Positions 42,902-59,916 are shown, numbered from the stretch's first letter. The stretch: DNA of 64,000 bases from Haladaptatus sp. ZSTT2 (GCF_037081775.1 NZ_JBAMHQ010000002.1:124001-188000); one strand, 5' to 3'. Numbers and translations are program-made. Notes: a model not told the origin generated them from the sequence alone.

Positions 42902-45844
42902 TTAGAAGAAGTCGAGCTCCGTGGGTGCATCATCGGTTAGACTCCCGCTTTGCTCTTCGAATTCAAATGAATCTGGTCCCTCCGTTACGCCTAAGAATAC
43001 TGGTCCACCTTGTGTCACCGTCAACATATGATTCGCCTCGTTGATGATTATTGTCCCCCCACCTTTCTGCTCTAACACGAATTCGGCAACTGAAACGATC
43101 TCCGGGTTGGTAATGAACTCCCGGCGATTTTGCCGCTCTTTGAACGGGCGGCCTTGCGCATCCACGCTGAACTGATAACCTTCACGCGGCCCTGGATAGG
43201 GGTCGCCCATCTCTAGCTCTGTAGGGTCTGGAATTGTTACCTCGAAGTCATCGCTTGTTGGCAGTGGGTCATCAGTCAGAACAAGTTCTCCTTCCAACAT
43301 GGAGTCTCCAGCATCCCAATAGTAGTGATGAACTTCTGCGTTCGCAAGCTGTTCATCCCAGTCATACTCCTTGAAAAGCCGCTCATCTATGGTATCACGG
43401 GCATAGAGCACGTACAATTGAGACGTCTTTCCCTCATCAGATCCTGTACGGAGCACACGGCCAAACGTTTGGATTCGCTGGCGTAAGCTGCTGTTCGAAA
43501 CCCGAATAATGCCCACATCAGCACTTGGGACGTCGACTCCCTCGACGAGAGCTTTGACACTGAGCATTACGTTTGCAAATCCGTCTGCACGGAACCACTC
43601 CATCGCATAATCGTTCCAGGCATCTCGAGAATGACCTGAGTGATACATTGCAGGCCAAAATTTAGACTCGCTAAACAGCTCTTCAATCGCTAAGTCCACC
43701 TGTTTCAAGTCTTCATACAACTCATACTGTTCTTGCCGACCGGATGCCCCCTCAGTTAGCTTTCCAGTTCGAGGATTCCTGTCTCGCCGCTCATGAGGCG
43801 CAACCAATTGCTCTAACTGCGCGATATGCTCTTGGAACACGATCGATTTCTTCCCGGACTCGACCGCATTTCGAAGCAATTTCAGCGTAATCGATTGGCG
43901 GTAGATAGAATCTGCAACAAGGTCCCGACGCTCTTGAGTGAATTCGAAGAAGTCGGCAATAGCAGGCGTTGGACCATCAGCACTGTTCATCAAGGTCTGG
44001 AGCTTCTGGTGGAAATTTCCATTCAATTGGTAGAGGCGATCTCCGTACAGCATGTCGATCTCGTTGATTGCATTCGAGATCTTCTTCGTGTACTGGTCGT
44101 ATAACCGGCGCTCACGGTCGGTAAGTTCAAACCCAACATAATTCACCTCGAACGGTGGAATCAGCCCCCGTTTGAGTGCTTCATCATACGTGAGATTATA
44201 GTAGATGTCTCCCAGTTCACTGATGAGCAGCTCATCCGCCGGAGAGTACTGTTCAGAGCAATCTTTTTCGACAATTCCAATATTTGATGTTGGAGTCGCC
44301 GAGAGGCCAAGCGAAGCAGTTCGGTGATACGAAAAGATGTTAGAGAAAACATCACCGGTATACCGATGACATTCGTCTGCGATCAAGAGATGTGGGGGAT
44401 CCCCCACCGACTTCAGCGACTCTGCAAGGTAGTCTTCATTGACTGCCGTATTGACGATACTGACAACAATTCGGCGGCCCTTCTCGAATCCATCGCGAGT
44501 TCCATCGCCGGCCCACCCTAAGTCCTCGACTGGCACATTGAGCTTCGTAATGAGCTCTGTGAGCCATTGGTCCATCAATACTTTCGTCGGAACAATTATC
44601 GTCACAACGCCATCCTCAGTAGAGACTAACCACTCCCGTATTGCTCCGAGTGCCATGACTGTTTTTCCAGCCCCGGTCACAACTTGCGCAATTCCCCGAG
44701 TTGGCGGCGTTCGCGAATTCGCGAACCACTGGTAGACTGCTTCAACCTGCCAGTCGAACAACTCGAACGAATCAGGGAACGTGTAAGGGTCTCGTCCAGC
44801 GTCAACAAGCGTCTCAAGGTCTGCACGGGATACCCCAGACCCGGCGGAGACTCTAATACGGTTCGCTTCAGTTGGGTCAGGGGCATCCCGAATTCGCTTC
44901 AGAACGTCTGTTGAAAGTCCACTCAATAGCTGACTTTCAATCCCATGGATCTGCTTTATCTCTCGTCTGAGATCCTTACGATTGGTCCGGGCTTCCATAT
45001 AATCAGCTGAGCGCTGGAGCTGAGGTCGGACTGTATTGCCCTCCCGTGCATCTGCTGAGAGAAATTCTCGCCAGAAGGGTTTGAGCCAGGCTGTCTGCTT
45101 TCCCATCCCACCTGACTCGCGGTACATGTAGTATTTCATCATGTCACGTTTCACCGAGCTCTTAGGGAGGTCGCCTGTTGCCCCTTCACGCCGAATCCAG
45201 CGTTCATAAATCCGGAACAAGTCTGCCTGTCTGAACTTGTTGAGATAGGTCTCAGCCGCTTCAGTGGGAGTGTATTTGGCAGTCGAATCATCCTTCTCTA
45301 TTGCACCAAGGAGAACAAGCAACTCAGGATACCCTCGCACACCCAGCTTGTTGAAGGAATAATTGTAGTCCTCACGGAGCGTGTATTCGATATCTGATTT
45401 TCCTAATGGTTTCTCGGCGTGGATCAGTGCATGAAGCACCCGTTCGATAGCCTCAATCTTTTCAGGCGCATTTGCTTCGAGGACCCACCCTCGTTTCAGT
45501 GACTGCCAGATAAAATCCGCAAAGTCAAGCTCAGCGTCTAACCACGCAGATCCAGTCGGCCAAAGCGAGACGAATTGCTCAGTTCGTTCACCGTCTTCTC
45601 CTTCGGTTTTTCGGGATTCTCTTCTGATGAACCCTGAGCTTACCATATCAGAGGTCATCCGTCGATTCCATGACTCACCATAGAGTTCCGAAGAATTGGG
45701 CTTCGTCACAGCCTGAAGACACCGTTCCCGAAACTCATCCCACGTAAGCTGGGTTTCTGCATCGTTAACAATAGAGAGTACCGTCTCGTAGTGGGGTTTA
45801 TACGTGGGTAATCCAACAGCACCAGGGGGAAATCTTCGTGTCAT
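42902..45844 (-). CDS. SF2 helicase with C-terminal repeat module
   Basis: A 980-residue protein. The N-terminal ~350 residues are helical with winged-helix-like parts (LTWDEFRERCLQAV). The SF2 core has Walker A VTGAGKTVMALG (~390), DECH box LIADECHRYTGD (~487), motif III LGLSATPTS and motif VI QRIQTFGRVLRTG (~810). After the core, ~870-955 repeats the module of the two upstream proteins: GYQFSVDAQGR, then GGGTIIINEANHMLTV and GPVFLGVTEG. It starts 9 nt after the preceding gene. Likely a DNA translocase of the local defence system. Confidence 0.85.
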   Translation of the reverse strand: MTRRFPPGAVGLPTYKPHYETVLSIVNDAETQLTWDEFRERCLQAVTKPNSSELYGESWNRRMTSDMVSSGFIRRESRKTEGEDGERTEQFVSLWPTGSAWLDAELDFADFIWQSLKRGWVLEANAPEKIEAIERVLHALIHAEKPLGKSDIEYTLREDYNYSFNKLGVRGYPELLVLLGAIEKDDSTAKYTPTEAAETYLNKFRQADLFRIYERWIRREGATGDLPKSSVKRDMMKYYMYRESGGMGKQTAWLKPFWREFLSADAREGNTVRPQLQRSADYMEARTNRKDLRREIKQIHGIESQLLSGLSTDVLKRIRDAPDPTEANRIRVSAGSGVSRADLETLVDAGRDPYTFPDSFELFDWQVEAVYQWFANSRTPPTRGIAQVVTGAGKTVMALGAIREWLVSTEDGVVTIIVPTKVLMDQWLTELITKLNVPVEDLGWAGDGTRDGFEKGRRIVVSIVNTAVNEDYLAESLKSVGDPPHLLIADECHRYTGDVFSNIFSYHRTASLGLSATPTSNIGIVEKDCSEQYSPADELLISELGDIYYNLTYDEALKRGLIPPFEVNYVGFELTDRERRLYDQYTKKISNAINEIDMLYGDRLYQLNGNFHQKLQTLMNSADGPTPAIADFFEFTQERRDLVADSIYRQSITLKLLRNAVESGKKSIVFQEHIAQLEQLVAPHERRDRNPRTGKLTEGASGRQEQYELYEDLKQVDLAIEELFSESKFWPAMYHSGHSRDAWNDYAMEWFRADGFANVMLSVKALVEGVDVPSADVGIIRVSNSSLRQRIQTFGRVLRTGSDEGKTSQLYVLYARDTIDERLFKEYDWDEQLANAEVHHYYWDAGDSMLEGELVLTDDPLPTSDDFEVTIPDPTELEMGDPYPGPREGYQFSVDAQGRPFKERQNRREFITNPEIVSVAEFVLEQKGGGTIIINEANHMLTVTQGGPVFLGVTEGPDSFEFEEQSGSLTDDAPTELDFF

Positions 45845-45853
45845 GGAAATTGA

Positions 45854-46705
45854 TTAAGCAACACTCTTGTTCGCACTTTTGCTGCAAGCAACGTAATAAT
45901 TCATATCAGTCACGACCGGCCGAGGAATGAGTCCCTCATCAAATTGCTCTAAATGGCCAATATATAGCGGTAGATGACCGTTTTTTGGGTCATTGTTCGG
46001 AGACGTTGCTTTGAGACGCCTCGTCACAAGCCGAAGGCCTGTAGAATCTCCTTGTGACTTCGCACGATTCTTCCAGGTCTCGAACGTAGAAAGTACCTCA
46101 TCTTGCTTTGCTGGTGGGACCTCTTCTGCAGGCGCATTCACGAAGATATGTCCGTACTCATTAATGTATAATCGCCCTCCTCTCTGCCGATACTCTTCGT
46201 ACCGTGCCACTAGTTCATCGTGAGAAAAGGCGGACTTGAACCGGTACTTTTTGCGCTTCCAGATGAGCTCACCATTGGCGTTCACTACCCATCTCTCACC
46301 GTGTCCGAACGTAAACCCATCCCAGATAGTAATTTCATCTGCTGGTGGGACCTCGGGGTCATTGTTAATTTTATTGAACCCAAGCCGACCCTCTAGTTTG
46401 CCAATGTACACCGGAATCCAACCCCGTTTATGCGGAGCCTCTTCAATGTGAGCGTAGTCATCTGAGTGGACTTTTGTTAAGACTTCACCCGCAGCAGTAA
46501 TGCGAAACGCACCGGTTCCTGTTCCATTGGTTTTCCCAACAGCCTGCATTGCTGTTACCAAATGCTGGGGTGGCTCACAGTGTGCCCTCAGGCCTCGATA
46601 GGACCACCGAACAATGTATCCACGCCCATGCCTTCTACTTTGATCAAGGCTGTATTTTGACCCTCGATACGCAGATGGCCATGGTTTTCCGGGCTCGATT
46701 GTCAC
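45854..46705 (-). CDS. Repeat-module protein B (two units)
   Basis: A 283-residue protein built of two ~110-residue units. Unit 1: GKPWPSAYRGSKYSL, GAFRITAAGEVLTKV and IPVYIGKLEG. Unit 2: WVVNANGELIWKRKKYRF, GGRLYINEYGHIFVNA and LPLYIGHLEQ. The same pattern occurs in protein A and at the end of the helicase. No enzyme motif is visible; an all-beta adaptor or nucleic-acid-binding scaffold is suggested. GTG 46705 gives an N-terminus like that of protein A; the open frame reaches 46822, which would overlap protein A by 77 nt. Confidence 0.7.
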   Translation of the reverse strand: MTIEPGKPWPSAYRGSKYSLDQSRRHGRGYIVRWSYRGLRAHCEPPQHLVTAMQAVGKTNGTGTGAFRITAAGEVLTKVHSDDYAHIEEAPHKRGWIPVYIGKLEGRLGFNKINNDPEVPPADEITIWDGFTFGHGERWVVNANGELIWKRKKYRFKSAFSHDELVARYEEYRQRGGRLYINEYGHIFVNAPAEEVPPAKQDEVLSTFETWKNRAKSQGDSTGLRLVTRRLKATSPNNDPKNGHLPLYIGHLEQFDEGLIPRPVVTDMNYYVACSKSANKSVA

Positions 46706-46745
46706 TTCTTGTCCGCTTGCCAGTGGGACTGCTGTTGGGACGAAA

Positions 46746-47705
46746 TTAATTATCCCCACCGGTGATCCTCTCCTCGGTTTTCTTGAGGTCTTCCTGCAAC
46801 CATTCGATTGGGTCATCATCAAATTCGGGTGCGGGTTCTTCCTCTTCTGTTTGCGAGTCTGTCGCTTCCGTGGCAGAATCTGGTGTTGCCTTGTGGTTCT
46901 CTGGGGAGGTCTTGTCTGTTGAACCTAGACTTGCTGCCCAATCTTCGAGTGCCTGTTCCTCCTCTGGAGAAAGATCTCGGGTGAGCGAGGGTGGCTCTTC
47001 GACGCTAAATGATGGGTTCTCAAGCGTACCAATGTATACGGGTAGCATTGAGAGGTCGGCACGTTCTTTTCGAAGTTTGATGATGTTGCGGACAACTGGA
47101 GGAAGGGACCCAAATTGTTCGCGGACGAGTTGTGGTGCTGGGTCGCGAATCAACGTGATCACATCTCCATTGGGTGTTACTCGGAACGACCCCCCCTCCG
47201 GTTTGTATACCCGAAGCTGGCGCCAGATGTTATCTGGGAGCGTTGAGGTGACTGAATGGTTCTTTCGTGTTTGAGTATTACGCCACCAAAGGCGGCCGTT
47301 CACGTTGTATGAATATCGGGCCCCATCGTAGACGCTTGGCCATAAATCGCCAGCAGAGAGGCCAGTTGGTTGGATCTCGATTGCCTTGCTTTTGTCAGCG
47401 TCCGGGACTAATTTCCCGCTCAGATCCACCTCTCCAATCCAGACACCCGTATATTCCTCAGTGTCAGATTCTTCCTCCTCGAGCTTGGTGAGCACCTGTC
47501 CAGTTTCTGTTATATGGATTCGCCCGCCAAGTGGCCGCACTTCCAACAAGTCCTCAACTATCTCCTTCGGGAAATCTTCGCACTTGAGTCGGTCAGTTCC
47601 ATTGTAGACCTGCCACCAAACGTCTTCTTTTTGGTTGACGTGTAATCGGAAGCCACGATAGTGTTCAGACCATTTTTCGCCGATAGAGAGTTTGTTTTGC
47701 GTCAT
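46746..47705 (-). CDS. Repeat-module protein A (two units)
   Basis: A 319-residue protein. Unit 1 starts GEKWSEHYRGFRLHVN, with VWWQVYNG, GGRIHITETGQVLTKL and GVWIGEVDL. Unit 2 has GDLWPSVYDGARYSYN, LWWRNTQT, GGSFRVTPNGDVITLI and LPVYIGTLEN. The C-terminal ~90 residues are disordered and very acidic (TEEEEPAPEFDDDP), ending in a short helix. Together with protein B and the helicase tail there are five units. Function unknown. It begins a subgroup of genes 190 nt after the dnd-associated gene. Confidence 0.75.
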   Translation of the reverse strand: MTQNKLSIGEKWSEHYRGFRLHVNQKEDVWWQVYNGTDRLKCEDFPKEIVEDLLEVRPLGGRIHITETGQVLTKLEEEESDTEEYTGVWIGEVDLSGKLVPDADKSKAIEIQPTGLSAGDLWPSVYDGARYSYNVNGRLWWRNTQTRKNHSVTSTLPDNIWRQLRVYKPEGGSFRVTPNGDVITLIRDPAPQLVREQFGSLPPVVRNIIKLRKERADLSMLPVYIGTLENPSFSVEEPPSLTRDLSPEEEQALEDWAASLGSTDKTSPENHKATPDSATEATDSQTEEEEPAPEFDDDPIEWLQEDLKKTEERITGGDN

Positions 47706-47895
47706 TGTTAGGTTAGTTTCGCTGTATGATTCGGTGATTAGATAAGTGGTACCATGTGACTATCGCTTGAATTGACTTGATGCTATATCATCATATATGT
47801 ATTGATATATTGCACATATCCCACAGATTCTTTGTTCGAATGATGGTATCAATCGAGTGACGTAGCGACCATTGTCACCGTCATAATTTTCTGTC

Positions 47896-48366
47896 TTAGA
47901 CTGGACTATTGTTCTCGAAGTCGAGTTTGATCTCGCTGAGGATCGTTTCATCTTCCTCTTGGTCTTCATCTCGATGATTGGCCTGGAGGTAGGTGACAAC
48001 CGCATCGGTTGGGTCACCAGTCACATCCCCAAACTCTTCAGCAGCGATCTGTGCTCCACCTGCTGCATACTGAGCCAGAATCTGAAGTTGCTTCTTCGGG
48101 TTTAGAAGCGCTGCGGGGTCCTTTGTATCCTGGAAGGCAATCGATGCGGCGACGACACGATAGAGGTCTTTTTTCTGGAGGTGCATCCAGAGCATCTCGT
48201 TGTCCCCTTCGTAGCCTTCACGCACCACTTTGCCCTTGTTGAATCCAAGTGTTGCTGCGAACACGAAAAAGTCCACATAGGACCCAAATACCCCGTAATC
48301 GTCGACGAGAGTTTCATAGATCGGTGTCTTCTCGTAATTTACACGTGCACTTGCTGATTCACTCAT
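47896..48366 (-). CDS. DNA phosphorothioation-associated protein 4-like
   Basis: A 156-residue helical protein. VFGSYVDFFVFAATLGFNKG, then KKDLYRVVAASIAFQDT and LAQYAAGGAQIAAEEFGD follow the pattern of the dnd-associated protein 4 family (VFAAxLGY, then EYANGGLEIL). It lies 2 nt after the DndD-like gene, as expected for that family. The function of the family is not established. The acidic tail EDQEEDETILSEIK may contact the ATPase. Confidence 0.6.
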   Translation of the reverse strand: MSESASARVNYEKTPIYETLVDDYGVFGSYVDFFVFAATLGFNKGKVVREGYEGDNEMLWMHLQKKDLYRVVAASIAFQDTKDPAALLNPKKQLQILAQYAAGGAQIAAEEFGDVTGDPTDAVVTYLQANHRDEDQEEDETILSEIKLDFENNSPV

Positions 48367-48368
48367 TT

Positions 48369-50408
48369 TTATTCACCACCTGCAACCGCAGTCTGCTGAC
48401 TTTCAATATGCGTCTGTGGATAGTTCTTCTCGCCTTGTCCTCGATCATAATTCAACCAATACTGCTTGCCGACGAACGGTTGCATCTCTTCGGCAACCGC
48501 TCCATCCCACTGAGAATCAGTGGCGAAAACAATCACCTGCTCAGCCAGATGAGGCATCAACCGACCCACCTGCTTTTGGTGCGTCTTGTCTAACGACCCG
48601 AAAGGTGAGTCCATCACCACTGGGTAAATGCCACCTTTGAAATACGGCGAATCATCGCTTGTCTCATAGCGCTCACGCGCAATTGAAACAAGACTTCCAA
48701 TAAAGGCTAAACTCGCAATTTGCCGTTCACCAGTAGATTTGTCAACTGGAGCGAGTGCCCCGTCAACTTTCTGCCGAATGAGGAGCTTGAAATCCTCTGA
48801 AATATCGGCTTCTAAATCCTTGTGAGAGATCTCTGCAAAGGTCTCTTTGACCAGTCTATCCGACCATCCACGAACTGTAGATTGCAGGTCTACGAAGTTG
48901 GCCTCTAACTCTTCTCTAACAGCAACTGCCGCGGCCCGTCGGCGTTTTGCCGTAAGGGCCTTCCCTTTCTCCTCTTCTTCGGCTTCGATATCCGCTTCTA
49001 AATCCTCAATTTTCTCCTCATCATCTTGAAGACGCTGGTCGAGTCGAATGATCTGCTCTTTCGTATCCTCAAGCTGCTTTACTTTCTCTTTACGGGTACG
49101 CTCGAGCTCAGCTGGGCTTTCACGATTTTTGTCAGAGGTTTCATCTAGCCCTTCAAGCTTTGTGCTCACCTCATCGATTTTCTCAGTTAATTCCGTAACT
49201 TGCCCTTCTAGTGTTTCGCGTTCTGCAACTAGCGTATCAATTTTTTCGAACAGCTTCGACCGACCGACAGCAATGTGTTCAAGTTGGGAGATGAGGTGAA
49301 TTGCTGCTTGGTCTAAGCCTTCTATTTTGAGTTCAGACTTCCAACCTTCAACTGCTGTATAGGGGTCTGTACCTGCCTCAAGCGGGCGGTCACAAATGCA
49401 TTCTCCCTTGTTGAGAAGCCGGTCTACAAACTCATTGCTGAGCTCAGATGGGATATCTCCTTTCGCCCGAAGCTCATCAATTGCTTCGGCAGTCGCCCGA
49501 ATCGCCGGCATCCCAAACTCAAGATAGGCAGATTCTGATATCTCTTCTCGAATATTGGCATTGATCTTCTCGATTTGTTCCTCAATTTCCGCTCGCTGAG
49601 CTTCGAGCTCAGATCGGTCCTCTTCGAGTTCAGCACTCTCCTCTAACTCTTCGAGTTGGGCCTTTATATCTCCAATTTCGCCCTCGAGCGTGATTTTAGC
49701 CTCTCGTTTTGCAGAGATCTCTCGTTTCCGGTCGCGGATATCGGCCTCTAATTCATGCTTTTCTGCAAGGAGTTTCTTGAGCTCGTCACTCCCGAACTCT
49801 TCCATTTGACTCTCATATTCACTCTCGACGGTTCGCAGATGACGAATAGACCGCTCAAGAATGGTAAGGCCCATAATATTCTGAATTGCTTCCTGGACTC
49901 GGTCCTGGTTGTCTACTCCAGCGAGCTCGTCGATATCTTCTCCATCGAAGAAGAAGAGACTTCGAAGCCGGTCTGGGAGGATCTGCTTTAGACGCGTATC
50001 CGGGTTCTTCACCTCTCTCATCTCTCCATTCGCTTGTTCTTCTGCCAAGCTAATCCCCTGGTCTTCGAACACACCGTGCAGGTCGCCTTCTTTTTCTTTG
50101 CGAAGTTCTACCCACCGGGTTGCTCGAAATTCAGTCCCATCGTGCGTGAACGAGAGTGTCCCCTCAACTCGAATCCGGTTTCCAACCGCAGTTTGTGCGA
50201 CTACACCCTCATTTGGGAGATGCTCGATACCATTCTCGAAGCCAATTGCACCATACAATATCCACGGAAATGCATTCAATAGCGTCGTTTTCCCCGAGCC
50301 ATTGGGGCCGTGGATTACCGTGACGCTCTTACCCTCTTCAATCGAGAAGTCGATAGTCGCATCCTTAAATTGGCGGAAATTCTGTAGCCGGAGGGAAATT
50401 AACTCCAT
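48369..50408 (-). CDS. DndD-like SMC/Rad50-type ATPase
   Basis: A 679-residue ATPase. Walker A HGPNGSGKTTLLNAF (~33-47), a FFFDGEDIDEL segment (~170) typical of DndD, two long coiled-coil arms (~190-320 and ~375-510) with CICDRPLE at the tip, signature STGERQIASLAF (~570) and Walker B YPVVMDSPFGSLD (~612-624). DndD supplies ATPase activity to the DNA phosphorothioation complex. The partners DndC and DndE are not seen beside it, so a different use is possible. Start ATG overlaps the stop of the 59-residue gene by 1 nt. Confidence 0.8.
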   Translation of the reverse strand: MELISLRLQNFRQFKDATIDFSIEEGKSVTVIHGPNGSGKTTLLNAFPWILYGAIGFENGIEHLPNEGVVAQTAVGNRIRVEGTLSFTHDGTEFRATRWVELRKEKEGDLHGVFEDQGISLAEEQANGEMREVKNPDTRLKQILPDRLRSLFFFDGEDIDELAGVDNQDRVQEAIQNIMGLTILERSIRHLRTVESEYESQMEEFGSDELKKLLAEKHELEADIRDRKREISAKREAKITLEGEIGDIKAQLEELEESAELEEDRSELEAQRAEIEEQIEKINANIREEISESAYLEFGMPAIRATAEAIDELRAKGDIPSELSNEFVDRLLNKGECICDRPLEAGTDPYTAVEGWKSELKIEGLDQAAIHLISQLEHIAVGRSKLFEKIDTLVAERETLEGQVTELTEKIDEVSTKLEGLDETSDKNRESPAELERTRKEKVKQLEDTKEQIIRLDQRLQDDEEKIEDLEADIEAEEEEKGKALTAKRRRAAAVAVREELEANFVDLQSTVRGWSDRLVKETFAEISHKDLEADISEDFKLLIRQKVDGALAPVDKSTGERQIASLAFIGSLVSIARERYETSDDSPYFKGGIYPVVMDSPFGSLDKTHQKQVGRLMPHLAEQVIVFATDSQWDGAVAEEMQPFVGKQYWLNYDRGQGEKNYPQTHIESQQTAVAGGE

Positions 50409-50587
50409 TATTCGCTCCCTCCATCGAATGCATAGTCGACTTCATCGACTTCTGCTTCGATGATTTCCATTATCTCTGGGATGATATTGTGTGGTCGATC
50501 GAGGTGCAGTTGCTTCTTTTCCGCCTCCAGTATTTTCTCTCGAATTCGCGTTCGAGTTTTCGGATCGATTTCTATTGTATCAGTCAT
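50408..50587 (-). CDS. 59-residue acidic protein coupled to the DndD-like gene
   Basis: Starts at ATG 50587 and ends at TAA 50408-50410, which shares a base with the DndD start. Sequence: IDPKTRTRIREKILEAEKKQ, then HNIIPEIMEIIEAEVDEVDY. One basic and one acidic helix are likely. It may be a small adaptor or regulator of the ATPase, or the residue of a lost larger gene such as dndC; the own start codon argues for the former. Confidence 0.65.
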   Translation of the reverse strand: MTDTIEIDPKTRTRIREKILEAEKKQLHLDRPHNIIPEIMEIIEAEVDEVDYAFDGGSE

Positions 50588-50650
50588 GGTTGGTGATTTT
50601 TTTAAGTTGAGTTGTTGGATTTGATTTGTAGTGAATTCCGATAACGGTTC

Positions 50651-52072
50651 TCACATGTGTCGTAAATTATACATCCGCTTGAGTTCACGCAACGAGCCTT
50701 CGCCTGATGGAATTCCGGGAACATCAGCATCGGGATGATTTATCGCCGCTTCGGTGAACGTTGAAACTCGCTCAAGTTCGCTCCGGATAAGTGAGCGCTC
50801 AGCGTTGAATGCATCTCCTTCAAGGCCTGTTAGGCTCCCACCTCCAGCTGGCACTGCGATAAAGTCATGAATCACGGCGAACTCCTTCCCAGGATGGGTG
50901 CGAAGAATCCGACCACGACGTTGGACAAATTGACGTGGGTTTGATGAACTCGCGAGCATGAACGCAGTTCGGGTGGCGGGCACGTCTACACCTTCGTCTA
51001 AACATCGAATCGCCACTAATGCCTCCAATTCGCCTTGTCGAAACTCCTCAAGGAGTTTTTCGCGGTCGGCTTGGGTTTCACGTGCAGTGAAGCGATTTAC
51101 GCGCAACCCTTTGGCTCGGAGTTCATCGACTGCTGCATCGACGTGGCGTTTCATCTTGCCTGTTTCTTCATTTCCGATAGACCCATCCCCACAGTATACG
51201 AGCGTATGGTCCACTGAATCCATTTGGTCGATAAGCTCGTTCAGCCGAGTGAGTTTATTTTCTGCTGTCCCCACCAGTCGTGCCCGCTTGAACAGCGCAA
51301 ATTGTAGCGAGCTGTTTCCCTGCAGGTCTGCATCGGACAGATTTCCATTGAATCGACTTGCGAGCCGACCAATCGTTCTCGTCAGTGTGAGGTATTCTTC
51401 CGTTTCATCGGCCGTCAGCTGAACGATGTGGGGGATATAGTAGTATGGACACAATGCACCGTTTTTGATTGCGGCCTGCAGGCCATACTCATAGACTACT
51501 CCACTAAAGTACTCCATCAGTTCCTCTGTTCCCTCTTCGTCGTACCACCGTTCCGGGGTGGCAGAGAGGGCCAATCGCTGCTTGAATCTCTCTGACAATC
51601 CTGAACGAAGATGAGGCGCACCCAGATGATGCGCTTCATCAGCGATCAGCATTGCTGACCGAGACGGAATCCTCGCAACCAGCCGTTGGAACGGCTTGCT
51701 CGCAAACGTTGCGTGGGTCACAATAACAACGACTGCATCTCGTGCCCCAGCGTGGTACGCAGCAAGCTGACGTTCCAGAGTCCCCTGCCATTGGCGACGA
51801 GACTTATACGCAAGAACTGGTTCAACGCCAAACTCGCGGACATCGCCCGCCCATTGGTCAACCAGATGTTGATAGGGTACAGCGATCACGAGGAATAACT
51901 GGTCGAAGTTCGCTGCTACCTGCCCTGCGGTCAACAGTGAGGTGATCGTCTTGCCCGTACCAGTAGCCATGTTGTACATGCCCTGGCCATTGTGTTTGAA
52001 CCAGGCACGAACTGCTTCTTGCTGATACTCCCGCGGTTCAACCCACGCAGGTGTCTTGAAAGTGGACGTCAT
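50651..52072 (-). CDS. SF2 helicase, phosphorothioation-type restriction enzyme-like
   Basis: A 473-residue helicase. REYQQEAVRAWFKHNGQGMY precedes Walker A NMATGTGKTITSLL (~35-47). DEAH box LIADEAHHLGA (~141-151), LALSATPERWYDEE (~167) and the C-terminal motifs VYCGDGS, AIRCLDEGVDVP and QFVQRRGRILRT are present. Size and order match the DEAD-type helicases annotated as restriction enzyme of DNA phosphorothioation systems. ATG 52072 overlaps the preceding small gene by 4 nt. Confidence 0.8.
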   Translation of the reverse strand: MTSTFKTPAWVEPREYQQEAVRAWFKHNGQGMYNMATGTGKTITSLLTAGQVAANFDQLFLVIAVPYQHLVDQWAGDVREFGVEPVLAYKSRRQWQGTLERQLAAYHAGARDAVVVIVTHATFASKPFQRLVARIPSRSAMLIADEAHHLGAPHLRSGLSERFKQRLALSATPERWYDEEGTEELMEYFSGVVYEYGLQAAIKNGALCPYYYIPHIVQLTADETEEYLTLTRTIGRLASRFNGNLSDADLQGNSSLQFALFKRARLVGTAENKLTRLNELIDQMDSVDHTLVYCGDGSIGNEETGKMKRHVDAAVDELRAKGLRVNRFTARETQADREKLLEEFRQGELEALVAIRCLDEGVDVPATRTAFMLASSSNPRQFVQRRGRILRTHPGKEFAVIHDFIAVPAGGGSLTGLEGDAFNAERSLIRSELERVSTFTEAAINHPDADVPGIPSGEGSLRELKRMYNLRHM

Positions 52073-52380
52073 GGGCAAACTCCAACTTCATTCGGCTCTC
52101 GCTCCCACAATCTCATCAGAGGACCACAAGTGCCTGCACCTCTCACTTTTTTGAAGGGAGTTCTCTGTGGAGAGTGCAAGAACTGGGTTTGACAGCTGAA
52201 TTGACCCATGCAGTTTCGTCTGTATTGTTGTCTGTGTTTTAGACACTTTACCATACCGGCATAGAAGCCATCTCTCAGGACTATCCAACCTTTACTGTGA
52301 GAGAATTCCAGGTGTAGTGAACTTCCTCTCTGGAATTGGGTACCTGGTAAGCTTCGAATGACGGCTTGTTGATTGGTCAT
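52069..52380 (-). CDS. Small basic protein between nuclease-like gene and helicase
   Basis: A 103-residue protein, 4-nt overlaps on both sides (ATGA), which is the main evidence that it is real. SSLHLEFSHSKGWIVLRDGF suggests a short beta-rich part; the rest is basic with several cysteines (CLKHR, CMGQFSC, GAGTCGP). This is unusually basic for a halophile protein, so it may bind nucleic acid. Some doubt remains because the frame is basic and of odd composition. Confidence 0.5.
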   Translation of the reverse strand: MTNQQAVIRSLPGTQFQRGSSLHLEFSHSKGWIVLRDGFYAGMVKCLKHRQQYRRNCMGQFSCQTQFLHSPQRTPFKKVRGAGTCGPLMRLWEREPNEVGVCP

Positions 52381-53105
52381 TGTTTTAGGGTCGGTGTCCA
52401 GGAGAGTTGGTGACTCCCCGGAATTTGATTGAATCTCACAGTTGTAGGATAAACTCGAAGTTCTTCTCGCGGAACCGGGCGACCATCGATAACGGCGAAC
52501 ATCGTTACAGATGGGCGTGCACGTTGCTCGATGACCCTTGCTACCTCTGTCGAGGATAAGCTTGCTTCATTCGACGAGATAATCGGAATTGACACGGCAA
52601 GGCTGAACCCAAAGGCTCGAGTCGTCAATTGCCACCAGATAACCTCGATGCCACAGTACGAGCTGATGCTCGTCAGTATCTTGGCACCCTTCATCCGCCG
52701 GGTCGCCCATGTATCAACTGCATCATAGAACGACTCCTCGGTTGCAATATATTCGCCAGTGACACTCGCGCTTGGAACGGCCAGAATCTGATACTGAATG
52801 TTTATTGTTACCGGATCACCTGTGAATTGCGTCTGTGTTGGCCAGGCGAGATGGTATCGGTGATTCTGGTCGTCTTTTCGTGATGCAAATTTTTGGACGT
52901 CGTCTTTCGCAGCATGATACCCCCCGATGCTTTCGAGCTCGAAGAGCACGGGGACGCAGTGGTGGCCACCCGCAATATCTGGACCAACCCATACGAGGGC
53001 GTCAGGGACGCCTTTTCGAGTATTGAAGCCACGTCGCTCCGTCTCGTGCTTGATTGCCGCATTTGCTAGTGTATCGCGCAGCGCGAGTGTCTCGGGCTTA
53101 TACAT
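52377..53105 (-). CDS. PD-(D/E)xK nuclease-like protein of the defence block
   Basis: A 242-residue protein. GVPDALVWVGPD followed by VLFELESIGGYHAAKDDVQK gives the D and E-x-E arrangement of a restriction-like fold, with the usual following helix. In the last residue the normal lysine is replaced by E, so activity is uncertain. The C-terminal half (WWQLTTRAFGFSLAVSIPII) is hydrophobic and probably buried. ATG 53105 overlaps the preceding gene by 8 nt; a further start at 53147 is unlikely. Confidence 0.6.
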   Translation of the reverse strand: MYKPETLALRDTLANAAIKHETERRGFNTRKGVPDALVWVGPDIAGGHHCVPVLFELESIGGYHAAKDDVQKFASRKDDQNHRYHLAWPTQTQFTGDPVTINIQYQILAVPSASVTGEYIATEESFYDAVDTWATRRMKGAKILTSISSYCGIEVIWWQLTTRAFGFSLAVSIPIISSNEASLSSTEVARVIEQRARPSVTMFAVIDGRPVPREELRVYPTTVRFNQIPGSHQLSWTPTLKQ

Positions 53106-54510
53106 TACCCAGTTTCCCCTCCTTCTGGAACGTGATGTCTCCCACAAGCTCTAGGAACTCGTCAGTGAGACCGTCAGATTGTAGTCTGCGTAGCGAAAGG
53201 GGTTCGCCCATCTCAAAGCGGAGCCATGTTTCGACAACTCCCACAGCGTCGTCCTCATAATCTCCACGAGCTGCTTGTAAGGTAGTGACCCATTCAGCAA
53301 ACGCTTTCAGCTGGTCTAATGCACTGACAGGGTTGTCTGCTACACTACCCATATCGACAGGTTCGCTCTCGTGGAACGCAGGAGCTTCCGTCAGTTGCTC
53401 TGAGACCGTCTCGACGGCTTTCTTGTGCTGTGAGAGGCGTGCATAGGTTTGCTCAACCCACTCGTCGTAGGTATCGGCAAGTGTCGAAAGCTCTGCTCCT
53501 AACTGGTCGACAGTTCGCGTCTCGTCCACCGCTGTACCAACAAGGTATGCCTCGACTACATCACGGAACGGCAAACCATCCGTCGCAAGTACCAACGACT
53601 GCTGTTCTGATTCGGCAAGTAGCTCCTCGTTGAACGACTCGAGGGAGGGTGCCCCAGCAAGTGCAGAATGAGGAACAGAGATTCCTCCTAATTTTGACGC
53701 AACCGCTCCGATGGCCGATTCCAGCTCCGCGATCGACCCCTGGAAGGCACCTGCAAGCGATTCGCGAACAGCAGCAGCAGCATGAATGACGGTTGGTATA
53801 GACATTAGTTTCTGCTCGATGGTTTCGACGTGAAGCTGTACGGCGTCCGCCTCTGATGAGTTCGCGTTGAAGCCCTTATAGTAAGAATATGTTTCGCTGA
53901 TCCCCGAAGCCGCCGCAGGTGCCCACTCGACATCGTCGAACGCACTCTCGAGCGCACACATGGTATCGTACCACTCGACCAACTCGCTCACCTGCGTGGA
54001 CAACTGTTCGTATTCAAGTAATTTGCTGACCCGACTTGCTGAGGCCTCGTTTACATACTCTCGCGTGCACTCACGCACGATTTCAGGGCTATTTCGAAGC
54101 GATTCTTCGCAGGTACTGTAAGTCGCAGTGGCCTCTTGGAGTTGGTCTGCCTCCATGGTTTTCAGGTTCTTGTCGATGGTGTGACGGTTGTCTTTGGTCA
54201 ACGACAGGCTCAGTGTGCCGCAGAGCTCATTAAGAGCTTGAGTGGCCGCTTCCCGAACGGGATCTGCAAGCGCAACTTCCAAACTCCCAACCATATGCTC
54301 GTAGTCCGTGAGTTTGGTTGCTGTCGCCGCTTCGACTTTGATCCCAAAGACGGCATTCATGAATGCATTACGAGGCTCGGCTTCGAGGGCCTCCCACTGC
54401 AGAATAACGTCCTCTAGACGATCTGCAAGAGCATCATATTCCTTTCCATCAGCATTTGCTTCGTCAGCATAGTCCTCGAGCGAGTCAAGCACTGGGTACT
54501 CAGTGTTCAT
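53098..54510 (-). CDS. Helical partner protein of the large ATPase
   Basis: A 470-residue, mostly helical, acidic protein with long heptad-like stretches (LEDYADEANADGKEYDALAD, TYDEWVEQTYARLSQHKKAV). No catalytic motif. It starts 4 nt inside the end of the 1034-residue ATPase gene (ATGA), so both are made together. In size and type it recalls the helical middle subunits (such as DndG) of phosphorothioate restriction complexes, but no sequence match is claimed. Confidence 0.65.
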   Translation of the reverse strand: MNTEYPVLDSLEDYADEANADGKEYDALADRLEDVILQWEALEAEPRNAFMNAVFGIKVEAATATKLTDYEHMVGSLEVALADPVREAATQALNELCGTLSLSLTKDNRHTIDKNLKTMEADQLQEATATYSTCEESLRNSPEIVRECTREYVNEASASRVSKLLEYEQLSTQVSELVEWYDTMCALESAFDDVEWAPAAASGISETYSYYKGFNANSSEADAVQLHVETIEQKLMSIPTVIHAAAAVRESLAGAFQGSIAELESAIGAVASKLGGISVPHSALAGAPSLESFNEELLAESEQQSLVLATDGLPFRDVVEAYLVGTAVDETRTVDQLGAELSTLADTYDEWVEQTYARLSQHKKAVETVSEQLTEAPAFHESEPVDMGSVADNPVSALDQLKAFAEWVTTLQAARGDYEDDAVGVVETWLRFEMGEPLSLRRLQSDGLTDEFLELVGDITFQKEGKLGNV

Positions 54511-57500
54511 TGCTCCACCTCCGGTGTGGTGACTCGAGCGATAAACGCGTCGAGCCCGTTTTTGAGGTCTGCTTTCTGTTCGGCTTTCGCATGGTGTTCT
54601 GTCATGAGGTTCTCCAAGTCGTCGAGGTAATTTTGTACGATACGGCGGTCACTTCGTGCCTTATCAGTGAGGGCCGGGATGACGCCTGTATCATCCGGAA
54701 TTGCGATTCTATCGGTGCCTGCTGTACCTTCGAAATCGAGAACCGACTTCCCGAGCTCCTCAACGTCTTCGATGAGGTCGGCTTGTGTGTCGGTGTATTC
54801 ACTCACGTCTGCGAAGGAACGGGCCGCCTTGTCGAGGTCGCTGTACGCTTCACGCAGGCCTCGAATGTCGGTGAAATCACCGTCTTTGATCAGCGCCGAG
54901 GGGAGTTTGTCGACTGCCTCGCCCATGACAGTGGCGTACCGCCGTGCGAAGATGAGATAGCCATACGCAGACACTCGGAAATCAGGATTGACGTCACACT
55001 GCATCGCAGCATTCTCAACTGCAGCGTGCATCTGACGTAGATTCTCCTCAATCCGATTGAGGTAGGCAGGCGTCAGCTCGACACCTGTTCCAACCTCAAT
55101 ACCGTCAGGGGGCGACAGATCTGCACTCAACTCATCGATTCTCTGAATCTGTTTTTCGACCGTTTTGCGGTCAGTTTCGAGACTTGTGGCGATTGCAGAC
55201 AATTTCTCTTTTACGAACGAAGTGTCTCGAACTAAGGTAGCGGCGAGAGCTGCACGTAGCCAGGAAAACTCTTCTGTTGACTCGACCGAGGCAGACCGAA
55301 TTATCGGAATCTCACCCTTCCCAGCGCGTGCATTGTCATCGTCTACTTTTACGAAGAGGGCCTCGGTGGAATCTGCGTAAGCATCGGCCACGGCAGCCAT
55401 GAATTTGAGAACGTTTTGGACTGGTGGTGCAATGGAGCCGTCAGCACGGTAATGCAGCCCATGGAGTCGAGACAGTGCTTTTGAGAGGTCTCCTGAATTT
55501 TTGAACCCATTTCCAACGAGTTCCGTGTGCAAGAAATTCGATGTGCTGAATTCATCGAATTCAGTCTTCGCGTCCTCGATAGTCTTGGGGATTGTACTGT
55601 ACTCCTGTGTTGTGTCGGGAAGCACCCCGAACGCGAACAGGAATGCGGTCATGAACCGTTGTTCGTGGAGTGGTGCGTTTGTCCACTCAGCGGTTGTGAT
55701 GGCGTCTTGTTCCCAAATTAGCTGGTTGCCAGCTGGACCGGCGAACCGGCTGTGATAGTCCGTCCAGAGACCCTCAGCAGCTTCTTTTCCAACCCGGTCA
55801 GCTAGCTGTTCGTAGAGGCTGCGAAGGGTTGTTGCAATCTCGTGGTCACTTTCTGCTTCTATAAGCGCAGAAATCGCTTTATCGTCCAGAGTGCCAGAGT
55901 TTTGCCCTTTCTGCGTGGCGTAATCCTGAAGATGAACGACGAAATCCCATAAGCGCGCTGCGTCCTGGTGGCGTACACTGAGCACGTCGAAATCCGAGAG
56001 GGCTTTCGGAACGCCATCGAGGGTGACATCTACTTCTTCGGGCACGAACAGCACGTTTGGTGAGGCCAGATCTGGTTCATTTCGAAGAATGTCGAGTTCC
56101 GTTTCGAAGACGGCTTTTGTTGGGCAGAAGACGACGGTAACTCTGTTGTGTGATTCAACGCGAAGCCCGCGCCCCATCGACTCATAAAGGGAGTCTGTAT
56201 CGGTGGTGGTGAGCCGACGTGGGTTCAACGCCAACGGTGGGAATGCGTTAGTGACGATGCGAGGAGCCGTTACCTCCACGTCCGTTTCGATAATATCATC
56301 CTCATCGAGCTTGTGCAGGGCGCTCACGTACGCGCTTGACAGCTTGCTCTTGGCTACTTCGAGCGTTTCGAAGACGATGGTGCGTTCCTTGGAGTGTGGC
56401 TCGAAAGAGGCCAAGATGTTCTGGGCAATTTCGAGGAAGGCAATGGCCTCTTCCTGGTCGTGTAACCACGAGTACGGGAGATGTCCGTTGCTATCTGCTA
56501 GAGCGTGAACTGCCCGTCGGAGACACACTTGTATCTTCACATGGGCTTCTGGGTTGCTCGACGCCAATGGCTCGAGATCCTGGAGGCGCTCATGCAGAAG
56601 CGTCACCATCCGTTTAGCAGGGATTGCCGTGTCATCTGCGATGACCCAGTCTGGGTAGCCATTCGGTAGAAATGCCACCGAGCGAATGGACGCATCATAG
56701 GCTTCTACGTTTTCAGTCCATACAGGGCGGACAAGGTCTACCTCAGCGATTGGGTCTTGGGCCAACCGCTCGAGCCACTCCGTGGGTGCATTCGCCTCAT
56801 CGCCGTCGAGTTCTGTGATGAGTTTGTGAACCCAAGCTGGACGACCGCGGCTTGCCCACCAAATGAACGATGCAAGCGATTCGTCGTGGCTTGCTTTTCG
56901 AAGGAGGTTACGAACGTCCTCAACAGTTACTGGTGGAATTTCGATGTCCACCTGGCGGCCTCGGTCTGCATCTCCTTGCACTTGGAATTCGTATGCGGAC
57001 AGTTGACCGAAACTCCAGAAGCAGAGGACGTCGGTGAGGCTGTCGTTGATGACGCGGAGTGAGTTTTCATCCTCGACGCCGACTGCTTTTCGGAGGCGCT
57101 GGAAATGCTGTTCGACTTCGTCAATGATGAGGACCCAGCGGTCCATGTCCACGACAGAGACTTCGGTTGGAACATTCTCATTCAGCCATGCTTCGAGCTC
57201 TTTCTGTGGAACGTCCGGGACCCATGAGAGAGTGTCAAAGTCCCGGCGTACCATTGCTTCTAACTGAATTTGGCCCTCTTTTTCGAGCCAGATTGGCAGT
57301 GAGTCTTCCTCATCGGCGTCGAATTGGTCGAGCATTTGCCCAGGGTGTGCAATGAAGACTGCAGGAACCCCTTTTTCCCACGCGTGGTTGTATGTCTCAT
57401 AGAGAAACTGAGATTTTCCGACCCGGTATGGCCCATAAACCATGTAGAGTGGGTACCCACCTTGACCTTCCTCTGCTGCGAATATCTTGATGGCATTCGT

Positions 57501-57611
57501 CATCGCCTCTAACCGCTGTTCGTGTTCATCCGTGAGCGCAAGGAACGGTCGCCCTAGCGTTGGGAGCAGCCCAAATTCGACGGCGTCGGCAGGGATATCG
57601 TCGTCAGTCAT
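54507..57611 (-). CDS. Large P-loop ATPase of the defence block
   Basis: A 1034-residue protein. Walker A YGPYRVGKSQFLYET (~59-73) and Walker B RWVLIIDEVEQHF (~158-170) mark a STAND/AAA-like ATPase in the first 350 residues. The middle part (TVVFCPTKAVFETELDIL) looks like a second alpha/beta domain. The C-terminal ~300 residues are helical and charged. The layout recalls the BrxC/DndF-type ATPases of defence systems. It is the first long gene of the block; a 398-bp region with inverted repeats precedes it. Confidence 0.75.
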   Translation of the reverse strand: MTDDDIPADAVEFGLLPTLGRPFLALTDEHEQRLEAMTNAIKIFAAEEGQGGYPLYMVYGPYRVGKSQFLYETYNHAWEKGVPAVFIAHPGQMLDQFDADEEDSLPIWLEKEGQIQLEAMVRRDFDTLSWVPDVPQKELEAWLNENVPTEVSVVDMDRWVLIIDEVEQHFQRLRKAVGVEDENSLRVINDSLTDVLCFWSFGQLSAYEFQVQGDADRGRQVDIEIPPVTVEDVRNLLRKASHDESLASFIWWASRGRPAWVHKLITELDGDEANAPTEWLERLAQDPIAEVDLVRPVWTENVEAYDASIRSVAFLPNGYPDWVIADDTAIPAKRMVTLLHERLQDLEPLASSNPEAHVKIQVCLRRAVHALADSNGHLPYSWLHDQEEAIAFLEIAQNILASFEPHSKERTIVFETLEVAKSKLSSAYVSALHKLDEDDIIETDVEVTAPRIVTNAFPPLALNPRRLTTTDTDSLYESMGRGLRVESHNRVTVVFCPTKAVFETELDILRNEPDLASPNVLFVPEEVDVTLDGVPKALSDFDVLSVRHQDAARLWDFVVHLQDYATQKGQNSGTLDDKAISALIEAESDHEIATTLRSLYEQLADRVGKEAAEGLWTDYHSRFAGPAGNQLIWEQDAITTAEWTNAPLHEQRFMTAFLFAFGVLPDTTQEYSTIPKTIEDAKTEFDEFSTSNFLHTELVGNGFKNSGDLSKALSRLHGLHYRADGSIAPPVQNVLKFMAAVADAYADSTEALFVKVDDDNARAGKGEIPIIRSASVESTEEFSWLRAALAATLVRDTSFVKEKLSAIATSLETDRKTVEKQIQRIDELSADLSPPDGIEVGTGVELTPAYLNRIEENLRQMHAAVENAAMQCDVNPDFRVSAYGYLIFARRYATVMGEAVDKLPSALIKDGDFTDIRGLREAYSDLDKAARSFADVSEYTDTQADLIEDVEELGKSVLDFEGTAGTDRIAIPDDTGVIPALTDKARSDRRIVQNYLDDLENLMTEHHAKAEQKADLKNGLDAFIARVTTPEVEQ

Positions 57612-58009
57612 GTGTCTGTACCTCGTCCATTGAAGGAGAGTAGGTATCCGCCGCCAAGTTCTGGATTAGTTGTTGCATAGTATGCGTGCATTCGGAGTAT
57701 GCCCTGAGCAACCCAAACCATAGATGGTTCTAATCGGCCCAAATACGCAGTTTTGGGCCGTGTCGAGGGCAAACCTCCTTACAGTAATCATCAACTCTGG
57801 GGGTTAAAAGTCTATGTATTGGTGGGTCTGTTCGGCATCGACCGAATTGAAAGTTTGGTTAGATTCGTGCATAGGGGGCGCTGAAGCACCGAATTCGGGC
57901 GTTTCAGGATTTTTGCATACAATATATGCACATAGTTTCCCCACTCATTCCATATTGGGATGGAAATGCTTATATTGCCCCAACCTTATCTTATAAGGTC
58001 TAATATTCT
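57612..58009 (-). promoter_or_regulatory. 398-bp regulatory region before the ATPase operon
   Basis: No gene seen. It holds a 9-bp perfect inverted repeat (CGGCCCAAA at 57735-57743 and TTTGGGCCG at 57752-57760), a palindromic TGCATACAATATATGCA at about 57914-57930, and a 7-bp inverted repeat ACCTTAT/ATAAGGT at 57983-57999. The A+T-rich 57914-57990 part can hold the promoter. The hairpin at 57983 lies just after the stop of the small gene and may also act as its terminator. Confidence 0.5.
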
Positions 58010-58372
58010 CTACTCTGGGAGATCCGAAACAGATTTTCTAATCTCGCCCAACATCGAGCCGGATTCAGCGGCTTCGTCTCTTTGCTTCGATGTAACACCA
58101 AGTCGGTCGGCCAATTCTTTTTGCAGAATCGGATCATTCAGGTCGGCTAACCGCACTAATTCAGATTTCGAGAGTGTCACTTCTGTTTCCTCTGACGCTG
58201 AAAGCGTTGCGATACCAAGCACCGCAGCGAAGCGGACCATCTCATTAGTCGCAAAGTGAGAATCTAATATTTGGTCTACCGCATTGCTTTTACTCGTGAA
58301 TTTATTCGTTAAGACAGCCCCCTCCAATAGGCGATTCAGATCTTCGGGTATCGCTGCTGACGTTCTAGGCAT
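58010..58372 (-). CDS. Small regulator-like protein, second of a pair
   Basis: A 120-residue protein. AAIPEDLNRLLEGAVLTNKF and SKSNAVDQILDSHF match the ribbon-helix-helix style seen in the preceding gene, followed by a helical tail (VRLADLNDPILQKELADRLG). It overlaps the preceding gene by 8 nt. Probably a DNA-binding regulator or half of an antitoxin-type pair controlling the downstream block. Confidence 0.6.
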   Translation of the reverse strand: MPRTSAAIPEDLNRLLEGAVLTNKFTSKSNAVDQILDSHFATNEMVRFAAVLGIATLSASEETEVTLSKSELVRLADLNDPILQKELADRLGVTSKQRDEAAESGSMLGEIRKSVSDLPE

Positions 58373-58664
58373 CTTCTGGCCTCAGTAAATCACGGTGTTC
58401 TAATTCGTCACGCATTTCCCCTGGCATACAGTTCGCCAACCTTGCTGCACGAATAAGGTCAACATCGTCCTCATTACCTGCTTGCTTAGCAGTGTACATT
58501 TGTATCGCACTCTCCATTGCCACATCTGAGTGTGAATCAAAGTATTCCCGAAGTGCAGTGCGAATCACGTCACCCGTGTTTGTGTACACTCCTGCCTCTA
58601 CTGCTCCGTCAAGATACAATTGGACATCTTCAGAGAGGGAAGCACTCACTCGTGGATTCGACAT
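58365..58664 (-). CDS. Ribbon-helix-helix regulator-like protein, first of a pair
   Basis: A 99-residue protein. MSNPRVSASLSEDVQLYLDG and GDVIRTALREYFDSH have the strand plus two helices of a CopG/ParD-like ribbon-helix-helix domain. The C-terminal part has AIQMYTAKQAGNEDDVDLI. ATG 58664 chosen; a TATA-like GCATATCAA lies ~32 nt upstream, and an upstream in-frame start at 58700 is less likely. Likely autoregulator. Confidence 0.65.
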   Translation of the reverse strand: MSNPRVSASLSEDVQLYLDGAVEAGVYTNTGDVIRTALREYFDSHSDVAMESAIQMYTAKQAGNEDDVDLIRAARLANCMPGEMRDELEHRDLLRPEDA

Positions 58665-58855
58665 GTATGCAATTCTATGGACTGCATCATTGATATGCAT
58701 TCGTGAGTGGCCATGCCCCCATCCTCACAGTGTACCACCACTCTTCTGACAGCAGCGTCACCCACTGCCCGACTGACTGAAGAATTTCAGCACCCACCTA
58801 AAAAACACTGACTGGGCCTATTTCTCGGAAGAGGTTGTCTCAAAGGCAGAAAGCA

Positions 58856-59788
58856 TTATCGAGCCAATGATGGCGAAAGTTGAGCTTCAATCTCAGGAAC
58901 GTTCGTGGCGAGAATCTCATCTACTTCCCCCCGGTTCTCGCCATCAGAATTGATGTATCGCTTTGCACCTTCGATTGTGACAGTGAACCCTTCATCTTCG
59001 TAGTGCGGAGCCATCACTCCACTATTGCTCAGAATAACATAGGCATCCATCTCATGGAGTTCACGTGCAACGGAGAGCAGCGTCGCTTGGTCACGTTGGC
59101 CAAAGCCCTCCTTTGAATACTCCGTAAATTCTGCGGTCGTGCTCATTGGTGTGTACGGAGGGTCAAAGTACACGAGATCACCCGCTGTGGCTTCATCCAA
59201 GACATATTCAAAACTCTCATCAAAAATTTCGACAGTGGATTCCTGAAGTACTCTACTTGCTTCTCTTACCAAATCGGCTCGCTCCCAATTTGGTTCGGAA
59301 TACCTTCCAACTGGGACATTAAACTCACCGTCCCGATTTTCGCGATAAAGGCCATTGAAACAGGTTCGATTGAGGTACAACAGTATGGCAGCCTCCTCAA
59401 TTTCATCGAAAGGTTCCTCATCTGGTGGGTTATTGAACAGCCGGCGTTGTTGATAGTAGTACCAATTTGCATCCCGCTTTTCTTCGACTTCCTCTGCGAA
59501 CGGTCGCTCGGGGTCAGGGGATTTATGTGGGTCTCTGAATTTAGACGCGCGTTTGAGGACCTTCTCGGGATTATCACGAATTTGTCGATAGAAATTCATC
59601 AATCGAGAATTTGTATCATTGATGGTTGCTGCTGTAGGTTCTAAGTCGAAAAAGAGGGCTCCACCTCCGAAAAAGGGCTCATGATACGTGGTAGTCGCAG
59701 AAGAACTATCCTCCTCAGGGAAGTGAGCGTAGATCTCATCGAGGAGGCGTCGTTTTCCACCAGCCCATTTGAGTACGGGGTCGACCAT
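58856..59788 (-). CDS. D12-class adenine-N6 DNA methyltransferase (Dam-like)
   Basis: A 310-residue enzyme. LKWAGGKRRLLDEIYAHFP starts the S-adenosylmethionine-binding fold, then EPFFGGGALFFDL (motif I), LYLNRTCFNGLYRENRDG and the catalytic YFDPPYTP (DPPY, ~203-210), followed by YVILSNS. This is the order of the D12/Dam family. Target sequence cannot be read. The N-terminal extension to 59866 is doubtful; ATG 59788 is preferred with a TATA-like TTTTAAC ~27-35 nt upstream. It diverges from the second methylase. Confidence 0.9.
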   Translation of the reverse strand: MVDPVLKWAGGKRRLLDEIYAHFPEEDSSSATTTYHEPFFGGGALFFDLEPTAATINDTNSRLMNFYRQIRDNPEKVLKRASKFRDPHKSPDPERPFAEEVEEKRDANWYYYQQRRLFNNPPDEEPFDEIEEAAILLYLNRTCFNGLYRENRDGEFNVPVGRYSEPNWERADLVREASRVLQESTVEIFDESFEYVLDEATAGDLVYFDPPYTPMSTTAEFTEYSKEGFGQRDQATLLSVARELHEMDAYVILSNSGVMAPHYEDEGFTVTIEGAKRYINSDGENRGEVDEILATNVPEIEAQLSPSLAR

Positions 59789-59916
59789 CGTACTGGTGTA
59801 CTCTGCTCGTCTTCGGTTAAAAGAATAGCCTTTCTTGTGAAGAGAACCGTCTATGAAATTGAACATATTACGCAGAAAAGTTTACCTCCGGCCACGAACC
59901 GATATACGGATAGACA
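59789..59916. promoter_or_regulatory. Divergent promoter region between the two methyltransferase genes
   Basis: 128 bp serve both genes. Minus-strand TATA-like sequence at 59814-59823 and plus-strand A+T-rich CATATTACG (~59864) or GATATACG (~59901) are candidates. Methylation of sites here could couple both genes; none is obvious. Confidence 0.35.

Follow-up and report, generated by a model that had tools for sequence, protein, structure and literature searches.

In a 64,000-nucleotide (nt) stretch of Haladaptatus sp. ZSTT2 (GCF_037081775.1, NZ_JBAMHQ010000002.1:124001-188000), referred to below as the window, in whose numbering all coordinates are given, we found a variant Pbe operon that lies beside an undescribed module-helicase unit, modB-modA-SF2b, and beside a cassette of an ATPase, a helical protein and a nuclease-like protein that is unrelated to Pbe. 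The PbeA protein of this operon is a superfamily 2 (SF2) helicase without the N-terminal PLD/HKD nuclease half. The explanation towards which we tentatively incline, giving it not quite an even chance, is that the block is a composite defence island, in which the missing nuclease of a helicase-only Pbe system would be replaced by an exchangeable effector encoded next to it, in this case by modB-modA-SF2b.

A complete Pbe operon with a helicase-only PbeA

A preliminary description of the window had suspected a Pbe system in the block, and this was borne out: pbeA-B-C-D forms a complete Pbe (CxC ABC ATPase-DndE) operon at 47896-52072, including the small pbeB gene, which that description had overlooked. 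Its DndD-like SMC ATPase is PbeC, as the protein matches the PADLOC PbeC profile at E=1e-213 versus 1e-54 for DndD and carries at residues 337-339 the CxC zinc hook that defines this PbeC clade (PMC10853773). The gene likened to dnd-associated protein 4 is also present and probably corresponds to pbeD, but its TIGR04062 score of 51.5 bits (E=1e-13) falls under the curated cut-off of 74.25, and it has no match in Pfam (DndE included) or PADLOC. Its place behind PbeC is conserved. No library model matches PbeB.

PbeA, an SF2 helicase of the dnd_restrict_1 type, scores 551.6 bits against TIGR04095, which is 92% of the curated cut-off of 600, and matches the PADLOC PbeA profile at E=3.5e-165. The alignment to the latter begins only at position 246, the PLD/HKD nuclease half being missing. 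An HxKx4D/E motif was not found in the protein, and a PLD N-terminal query gave no match. An open reading frame (ORF) at 52069-52380 was considered as the lost PLD half and rejected, since the relatives begin at the helicase and the frame is without any match; it is probably spurious.

Relatives were collected by a search of 392 genomes of the order and by three family-level searches. The PLD-type PbeA is missing in 22 of the 23 closely related haloarchaeal PbeC loci, and the PbeA proteins recovered in these PLD-less loci are helicases of 468-546 amino acids (aa), the exceptions being L082, where the retrieved sequence ends within PbeA, and L137, where no PbeA was found. The sole locus with a PLD, G326, has a 717-aa form adjoining dndCDEA, and the PLD form was found in every one of the more distant Pbe loci that were examined. 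Hence, a local truncation in the window does not explain the loss of the PLD. Because DndD served to find part of the loci, the search biases any comparison of how often helicase-only and PLD Pbe loci are linked to dndC, and we claim no difference.

Phosphorothioate and a candidate self mark

The preliminary description had associated the block with phosphorothioation, which the source genome does not support: its 99.95% complete assembly contains no TIGR03183 match and thus no DndC, and at E<=1e-20 PbeC is its sole DndD-like protein. In the absence of dndC, phosphorothioate could not be made by the known route, and such marking is not expected in this genome. Two Dam-family adenine methyltransferase genes lie at 58856-60840 (MethyltransfD12 E=3e-55 and 1e-58). 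The methylation target of Dam-family enzymes is GATC. In haloarchaea, all four strains studied carry phosphorothioate at GpsATC (PMC6459918). Methyltransferases near solitary Pbe systems were already noted by Xiong et al. (PMC6459918) and cytosine methylases near such systems by Rakesh et al. (PMC10853773). The point that we add is the GATC core shared by haloarchaeal phosphorothioate and Dam methylation.

Of 38 Pbe stretches without dndC, 9 contain Dam-family genes, versus 0 of 10 with dndC (p=0.17) and 0 of 25 other defence-rich control stretches (p=0.009); the expectation for a random stretch is 0.0015. In G271, G488 and G227, dam lies directly upstream of pbeA. The most likely candidate for the self mark is thus Dam methylation of GATC rather than phosphorothioate.

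Without phosphorothioate and without the PLD nuclease, the Pbe genes could in principle be a decaying, inactive remnant, and decay or inactivity of solitary Pbe systems has been considered by Xiong et al. (PMC6459918). A truncated SNF2 gene and an incomplete ADP-ribosylglycohydrolase gene show that some decay has indeed taken place nearby. We nevertheless regard a remnant as unlikely, because the four pbe frames are intact with their motifs and PbeC shares 40-52% identity with its counterparts in relatives that also have the helicase-only form, pointing to long purifying selection.

The variable place behind pbeD

In the 23 loci of the helicase-only clade, window included, the place behind pbeD is taken by modBA-SF2b (2 loci), by an MrcB_N/AAA protein and its partner (2 loci, L080 and L092), by GmrSD (2 loci, L082 and L098, which are close relatives of each other), by a two-module protein of another family (7 loci, in one of which a UvrD/AddB-like pair follows), or by other genes or none (10 loci). 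Near helicase-only Pbe one also frequently finds a second PbeA-like helicase, as well as HNH-repeat or helix-hairpin-helix proteins. The tally suggests that the lost nuclease half of PbeA may be replaced in trans by exchangeable effectors. The mod modules were compared with the two-module protein of the seven loci, and no homology was found.

The modB-modA-SF2b unit

The two repeat-module proteins singled out in the preliminary description were confirmed. Together, modB and modA contain four copies of one module (part-versus-part profile comparisons E=8e-15, 4e-14, 3e-13 and 4e-6, the second modA copy being the weaker), and a fifth copy forms the C-terminal tail of SF2b, which matches modB at E=5e-6 in a profile comparison. 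Neither modA nor modB belongs to a family in Pfam, PADLOC or NCBIfam. The predicted model of modA has a predicted local distance difference test (pLDDT) score of 87.6, and a search with it returned no PDB or viral structure match at E<=0.001. The helicase of SF2b matches Pfam ResIII/Helicase_C and, in the helicase part only, PADLOC PbeA (E=1e-45). The model of its N-terminal part (pLDDT 84) gave winged-helix matches of high probability, but none with E below 0.009; a nuclease domain was looked for in this part and not found, and winged helices are more likely. A 1272-aa frame in G126, tried as a fused modB-SF2b, was rejected, as modB and SF2b are separate frames there.

Strong modB matches place the unit in 17 of the 392 genomes, and it was also found on five plasmids and at 13 genome-contig loci; after removal of duplicates the total is about 24 haloarchaeal genomes. 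No viral copies of modA or of the unit were found in IMG/VR. Four contexts can be distinguished. In at least 14 genomes, modB-SF2b lies beside an SNF2 protein, a long Cys-rich zinc-ribbon-like protein, an Mrr-like protein and modA. In four, its neighbours are a NERD-type protein and a 380-aa protein. In one (G115, L107), it immediately precedes dndC-dndD-dndE-dndA and shares their strand. In two others, the window and G323 (L088), it stands directly behind pbeABCD on the same strand, with gaps of 190 and about 200 nt. The proposal that a module-based second helicase unit is attached to Pbe therefore holds in a second genome, and the unit adjoins Dnd genes in a third.

The SNF2 partner is DrmD-like (265 bits, cut-off 610). 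The Mrr-like partner is doubtful as an active nuclease, as its catalytic lysine is not conserved. At L104:7214-10501, the regular Cys-rich partner is a protein of about 1100 aa with many zinc-ribbon-like CxxC/CxxH repeats and without a Pfam match. A Piwi-domain protein is encoded close to the unit in Natrinema pellirubrum (L046:9818-11902).

These contexts also give substance to a different explanation, namely that modB-modA-SF2b is an independent haloarchaeal defence core with partners of its own (SNF2, zinc-ribbon, Mrr-like and second modA proteins), brought next to Pbe merely by the clustering of defence genes. We consider this a serious possibility. The SNF2-X1100-Mrr-modA operon accompanies the unit in most of the genomes (at least 14 of about 24); G323 has it on the side of the Pbe genes opposite to the mod unit, and the source genome keeps a second modA and an SNF2 remnant beyond the right edge of the window (66423-68220, about 19 kb away). 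However, an independent core does not readily account for the finding that, in three genomes from separate branches, the unit closely adjoins a pbe or dnd operon and runs on its strand, nor for the co-occurrence of the mod core with a close PbeC in the same genome (3 versus 0.65 expected, P=0.02). The window and G323 are not sisters (approximately unbiased (AU) test, p=1e-4 for the PbeC tree; p=2e-7 for the SF2b tree), so the pairing of Pbe with the mod unit either arose twice or is old and has been kept. In a rough placement model, two Pbe- or Dnd-adjacent copies among the 23 other loci have P=7e-6, or 0.003 if a 20-fold clustering of defence genes is assumed.

Several points weigh against the composite island. 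With an assumed 100-fold clustering, the same two copies could be due to chance (P=0.06). The unit occurs without Pbe in about 22 of 24 genomes and can therefore hardly depend on it, and the known cases of adjacency are few, two beside Pbe and one beside Dnd. None of modA, modB and SF2b has a recognisable nuclease domain. Furthermore, the Dam genes of the window are 6.8 kb from pbeA, outside the Pbe operon, and the Dam contrast with dndC loci is not significant. Taken together, the association of Pbe with modBA-SF2b is moderately supported.

Layout of the block and the ATPase cassette

All the minus-strand genes named in the preliminary description between 42902 and 58664 were found as open frames (Table 1), with the start of the nuclease-like gene corrected to the ATG at 53105. 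The overlaps of 1-8 nt reported for many of them exist inside the ATPase and Pbe groups (4 nt between the ATPase and helical genes, 8 nt between the helical and nuclease-like genes, 1 nt between pbeB and pbeC), and modA also overlaps modB, but there is none between groups. Gaps of 305 nt (ATPase cassette to pbeA) and 190 nt (pbeD to modB) separate the three cassettes, which are hence not one uninterrupted operon, and the distribution of overlaps suggests three transcription units. The block thus consists of at least three cassettes: Pbe, modB-modA-SF2b and ATPase-helical-nuclease. No near-identical plasmids were found.

Table 1. Genes of the block and its right flank; the first ten rows follow the minus-strand reading order
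Gene	Coordinates	Strand	Description	Basis
ATPase	54507-57611	-	P-loop ATPase, 1034 aa, Walker A GPYRVGKS, Walker B IIDEVE	six members aligned
helical	53098-54510	-	helical protein	adjoins ATPase in 5 other genomes
nuclease-like	52377-53105	-	nuclease-like protein, GVPD...ELE...DD..KFA.R motif	motif conservation
pbeA	50651-52072	-	SF2 helicase without N-terminal PLD/HKD nuclease	TIGR04095, PADLOC PbeA; short form also in relatives
pbeB	50408-50587	-	small protein, 59 aa	phmmer homologues, same place in related Pbe loci
pbeC	48369-50408	-	CxC-type coiled-coil ABC ATPase	PADLOC PbeC; CxC hook
pbeD	47896-48366	-	DndE-like / dnd-associated protein 4-like	TIGR04062, below cut-off; behind PbeC in relatives
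modB	46746-47705	-	two-module protein, conserved acidic DDDPxxW tail	alignment, module repeats
modA	45854-46819	-	repeat-module protein, start ATG 46819 or GTG 46759	homologous to modB
SF2b	42902-45844	-	980 aa: winged-helix-like N-terminal 350 aa, PbeA-like SF2 helicase ~356-807, C-terminal mod module	
RHH 1	58010-58372	-	ribbon-helix-helix protein, overlaps the next	
RHH 2	58365-58700	-	ribbon-helix-helix protein	weak ParD/RHH_8 Pfam matches
dam 1	58856-59866	-	Dam-family adenine methyltransferase	MethyltransfD12; TIGR00571 dam above cut-off
dam 2	59917-60840	+	Dam-family adenine methyltransferase	MethyltransfD12; TIGR00571 dam above cut-off

The ATPase, helical and nuclease-like genes had been read as a possible Pbe- or DndFGH-type effector. 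This we reject on both profiles and synteny: none of the three proteins matches a DndF, DndG or DndH model in PADLOC or NCBIfam, nor a Pbe model, and the ATPase has only a Pfam ATPase_2 match below cut-off (E=0.003). Five other genomes carry the cassette with gene order and strand preserved (ATPase identity 21-29%), never beside Pbe or the mod unit. The ATPase-helical-nuclease group is a separate cassette unrelated to Pbe. No viral copies of its ATPase were found in IMG/VR. The GVPD...ELE and downstream DD..K motifs of the nuclease-like protein are invariant in 4 of 6 members (the window and three relatives) and absent in the two more distant ones; the protein has no profile or PDB sequence match. 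BamHI has an active site of the D...ExE type. The conserved residues resemble such a site, which would make the protein a candidate nuclease of the PD-(D/E)xK or BamHI-like type.

It is therefore very improbable that the block, together with its ATPase cassette, forms a single multi-gene system, as had been proposed at first. All its genes are on one strand, and G330 also has all three cassettes, which would occur by chance with a probability of about 0.008. On the other hand, the cassettes of G330 are on separate contigs, the ATPase cassette stands alone in five other genomes, and in the window the 305-nt gap separates it from pbeA. Across related genomes, the cassettes occur in varying combinations.

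The right edge of the block (58010-58700) is the ribbon-helix-helix pair, situated between the ATPase cassette and the Dam genes. The two proteins match each other (E=2e-5) and are possibly regulators or orphan antitoxins. Beyond the Dam genes, 60866-63709 and a region extending past the right edge of the window to 66275 encode a UvrD/AddA-like helicase-nuclease and an AddB-like 857-aa protein; G190 (L087) also has this pair behind Pbe, and in G323 (L088, L127) the mod unit has a UvrD relative next to it. Just downstream of SF2b lies a C-terminal piece of an ADP-ribosylglycohydrolase (41350-41946), and Haloferax lucentense (L045) and Halorhabdus tiamatea (L047) have longer genes of this kind in the neighbourhood of the mod unit. 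The gene at 39686-40468 encodes an HNH endonuclease, the N-terminal part of which looks by eye like a modified-base reader domain. It has a close homologue near the ATPase cassette in L014.

Proposed mechanism and its implications

The functional steps that we infer for the composite island are as follows. PbeC and PbeD, judging by the DndD/DndE family, would scan DNA for a short motif that lacks the mark, with PbeB gating them. The PbeA helicase, to go by its motifs, would travel along the unmarked DNA. To this DNA modA/modB and SF2b might be recruited, SF2b supplying a second motor and the winged helices and modules supplying contacts. The recruited proteins could then either block replication or open the DNA to a nuclease encoded elsewhere, while the mark of self DNA would most likely be GATC methylation by the Dam enzymes and not phosphorothioate.

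A broader reading, which we consider possible but rather doubtful, is that an undescribed antiviral machine of haloarchaea has modB-modA-SF2b as its core, which would be plugged into Pbe, DndCDEA, SNF2/zinc-ribbon/Mrr-like or NERD-type modules, and that helicase-only Pbe would be a general sensor with an exchangeable effector slot, reading Dam-type GATC methylation in place of GATC phosphorothioation. If true, this switch from phosphorothioate to adenine methylation at the GATC core would help to explain solitary Pbe; in a published survey, more than half of the Pbe systems have no Dnd genes nearby. Whether Pbe cleaves DNA is disputed, as Xiong et al. saw no cleavage (PMC6459918), whereas Rakesh et al. 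argue that the PLD/HKD nuclease must cut (PMC10853773). A natural nuclease-less Pbe clade with McrBC-like, GmrSD-like or module-helicase units by pbeD makes this question directly testable. The mod proteins, for their part, are a new family with a confidently predicted structure that has no PDB match, and they join the Pbe, Dnd and SNF2 contexts.

Comparison with known systems

The window shares with the PbeABCD systems described earlier (PMC6459918, PMC10853773) the PbeA helicase, PbeB, PbeC with its CxC hook, a probable PbeD and the gene order, but differs in that its PbeA is without the PLD/HKD nuclease, its genome is without dndC and effector-like genes stand behind pbeD. Like DndFGH, the window has an ATPase with partners beside Dnd-like genes; unlike DndFGH, this cassette matches none of the three models and shows no linkage to Dnd or Pbe in the other genomes that carry it. 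A likeness to DISARM is seen in the DrmD-like SNF2 partner of most mod loci, whereas the conserved partners include no further recognisable DISARM protein, and the DISARM models gave no match to modA, modB or the zinc-ribbon protein. The type IV restriction systems McrBC and GmrSD are absent from the window and modBA-SF2b has no match to them, but their relatives fill the place behind pbeD in related loci.

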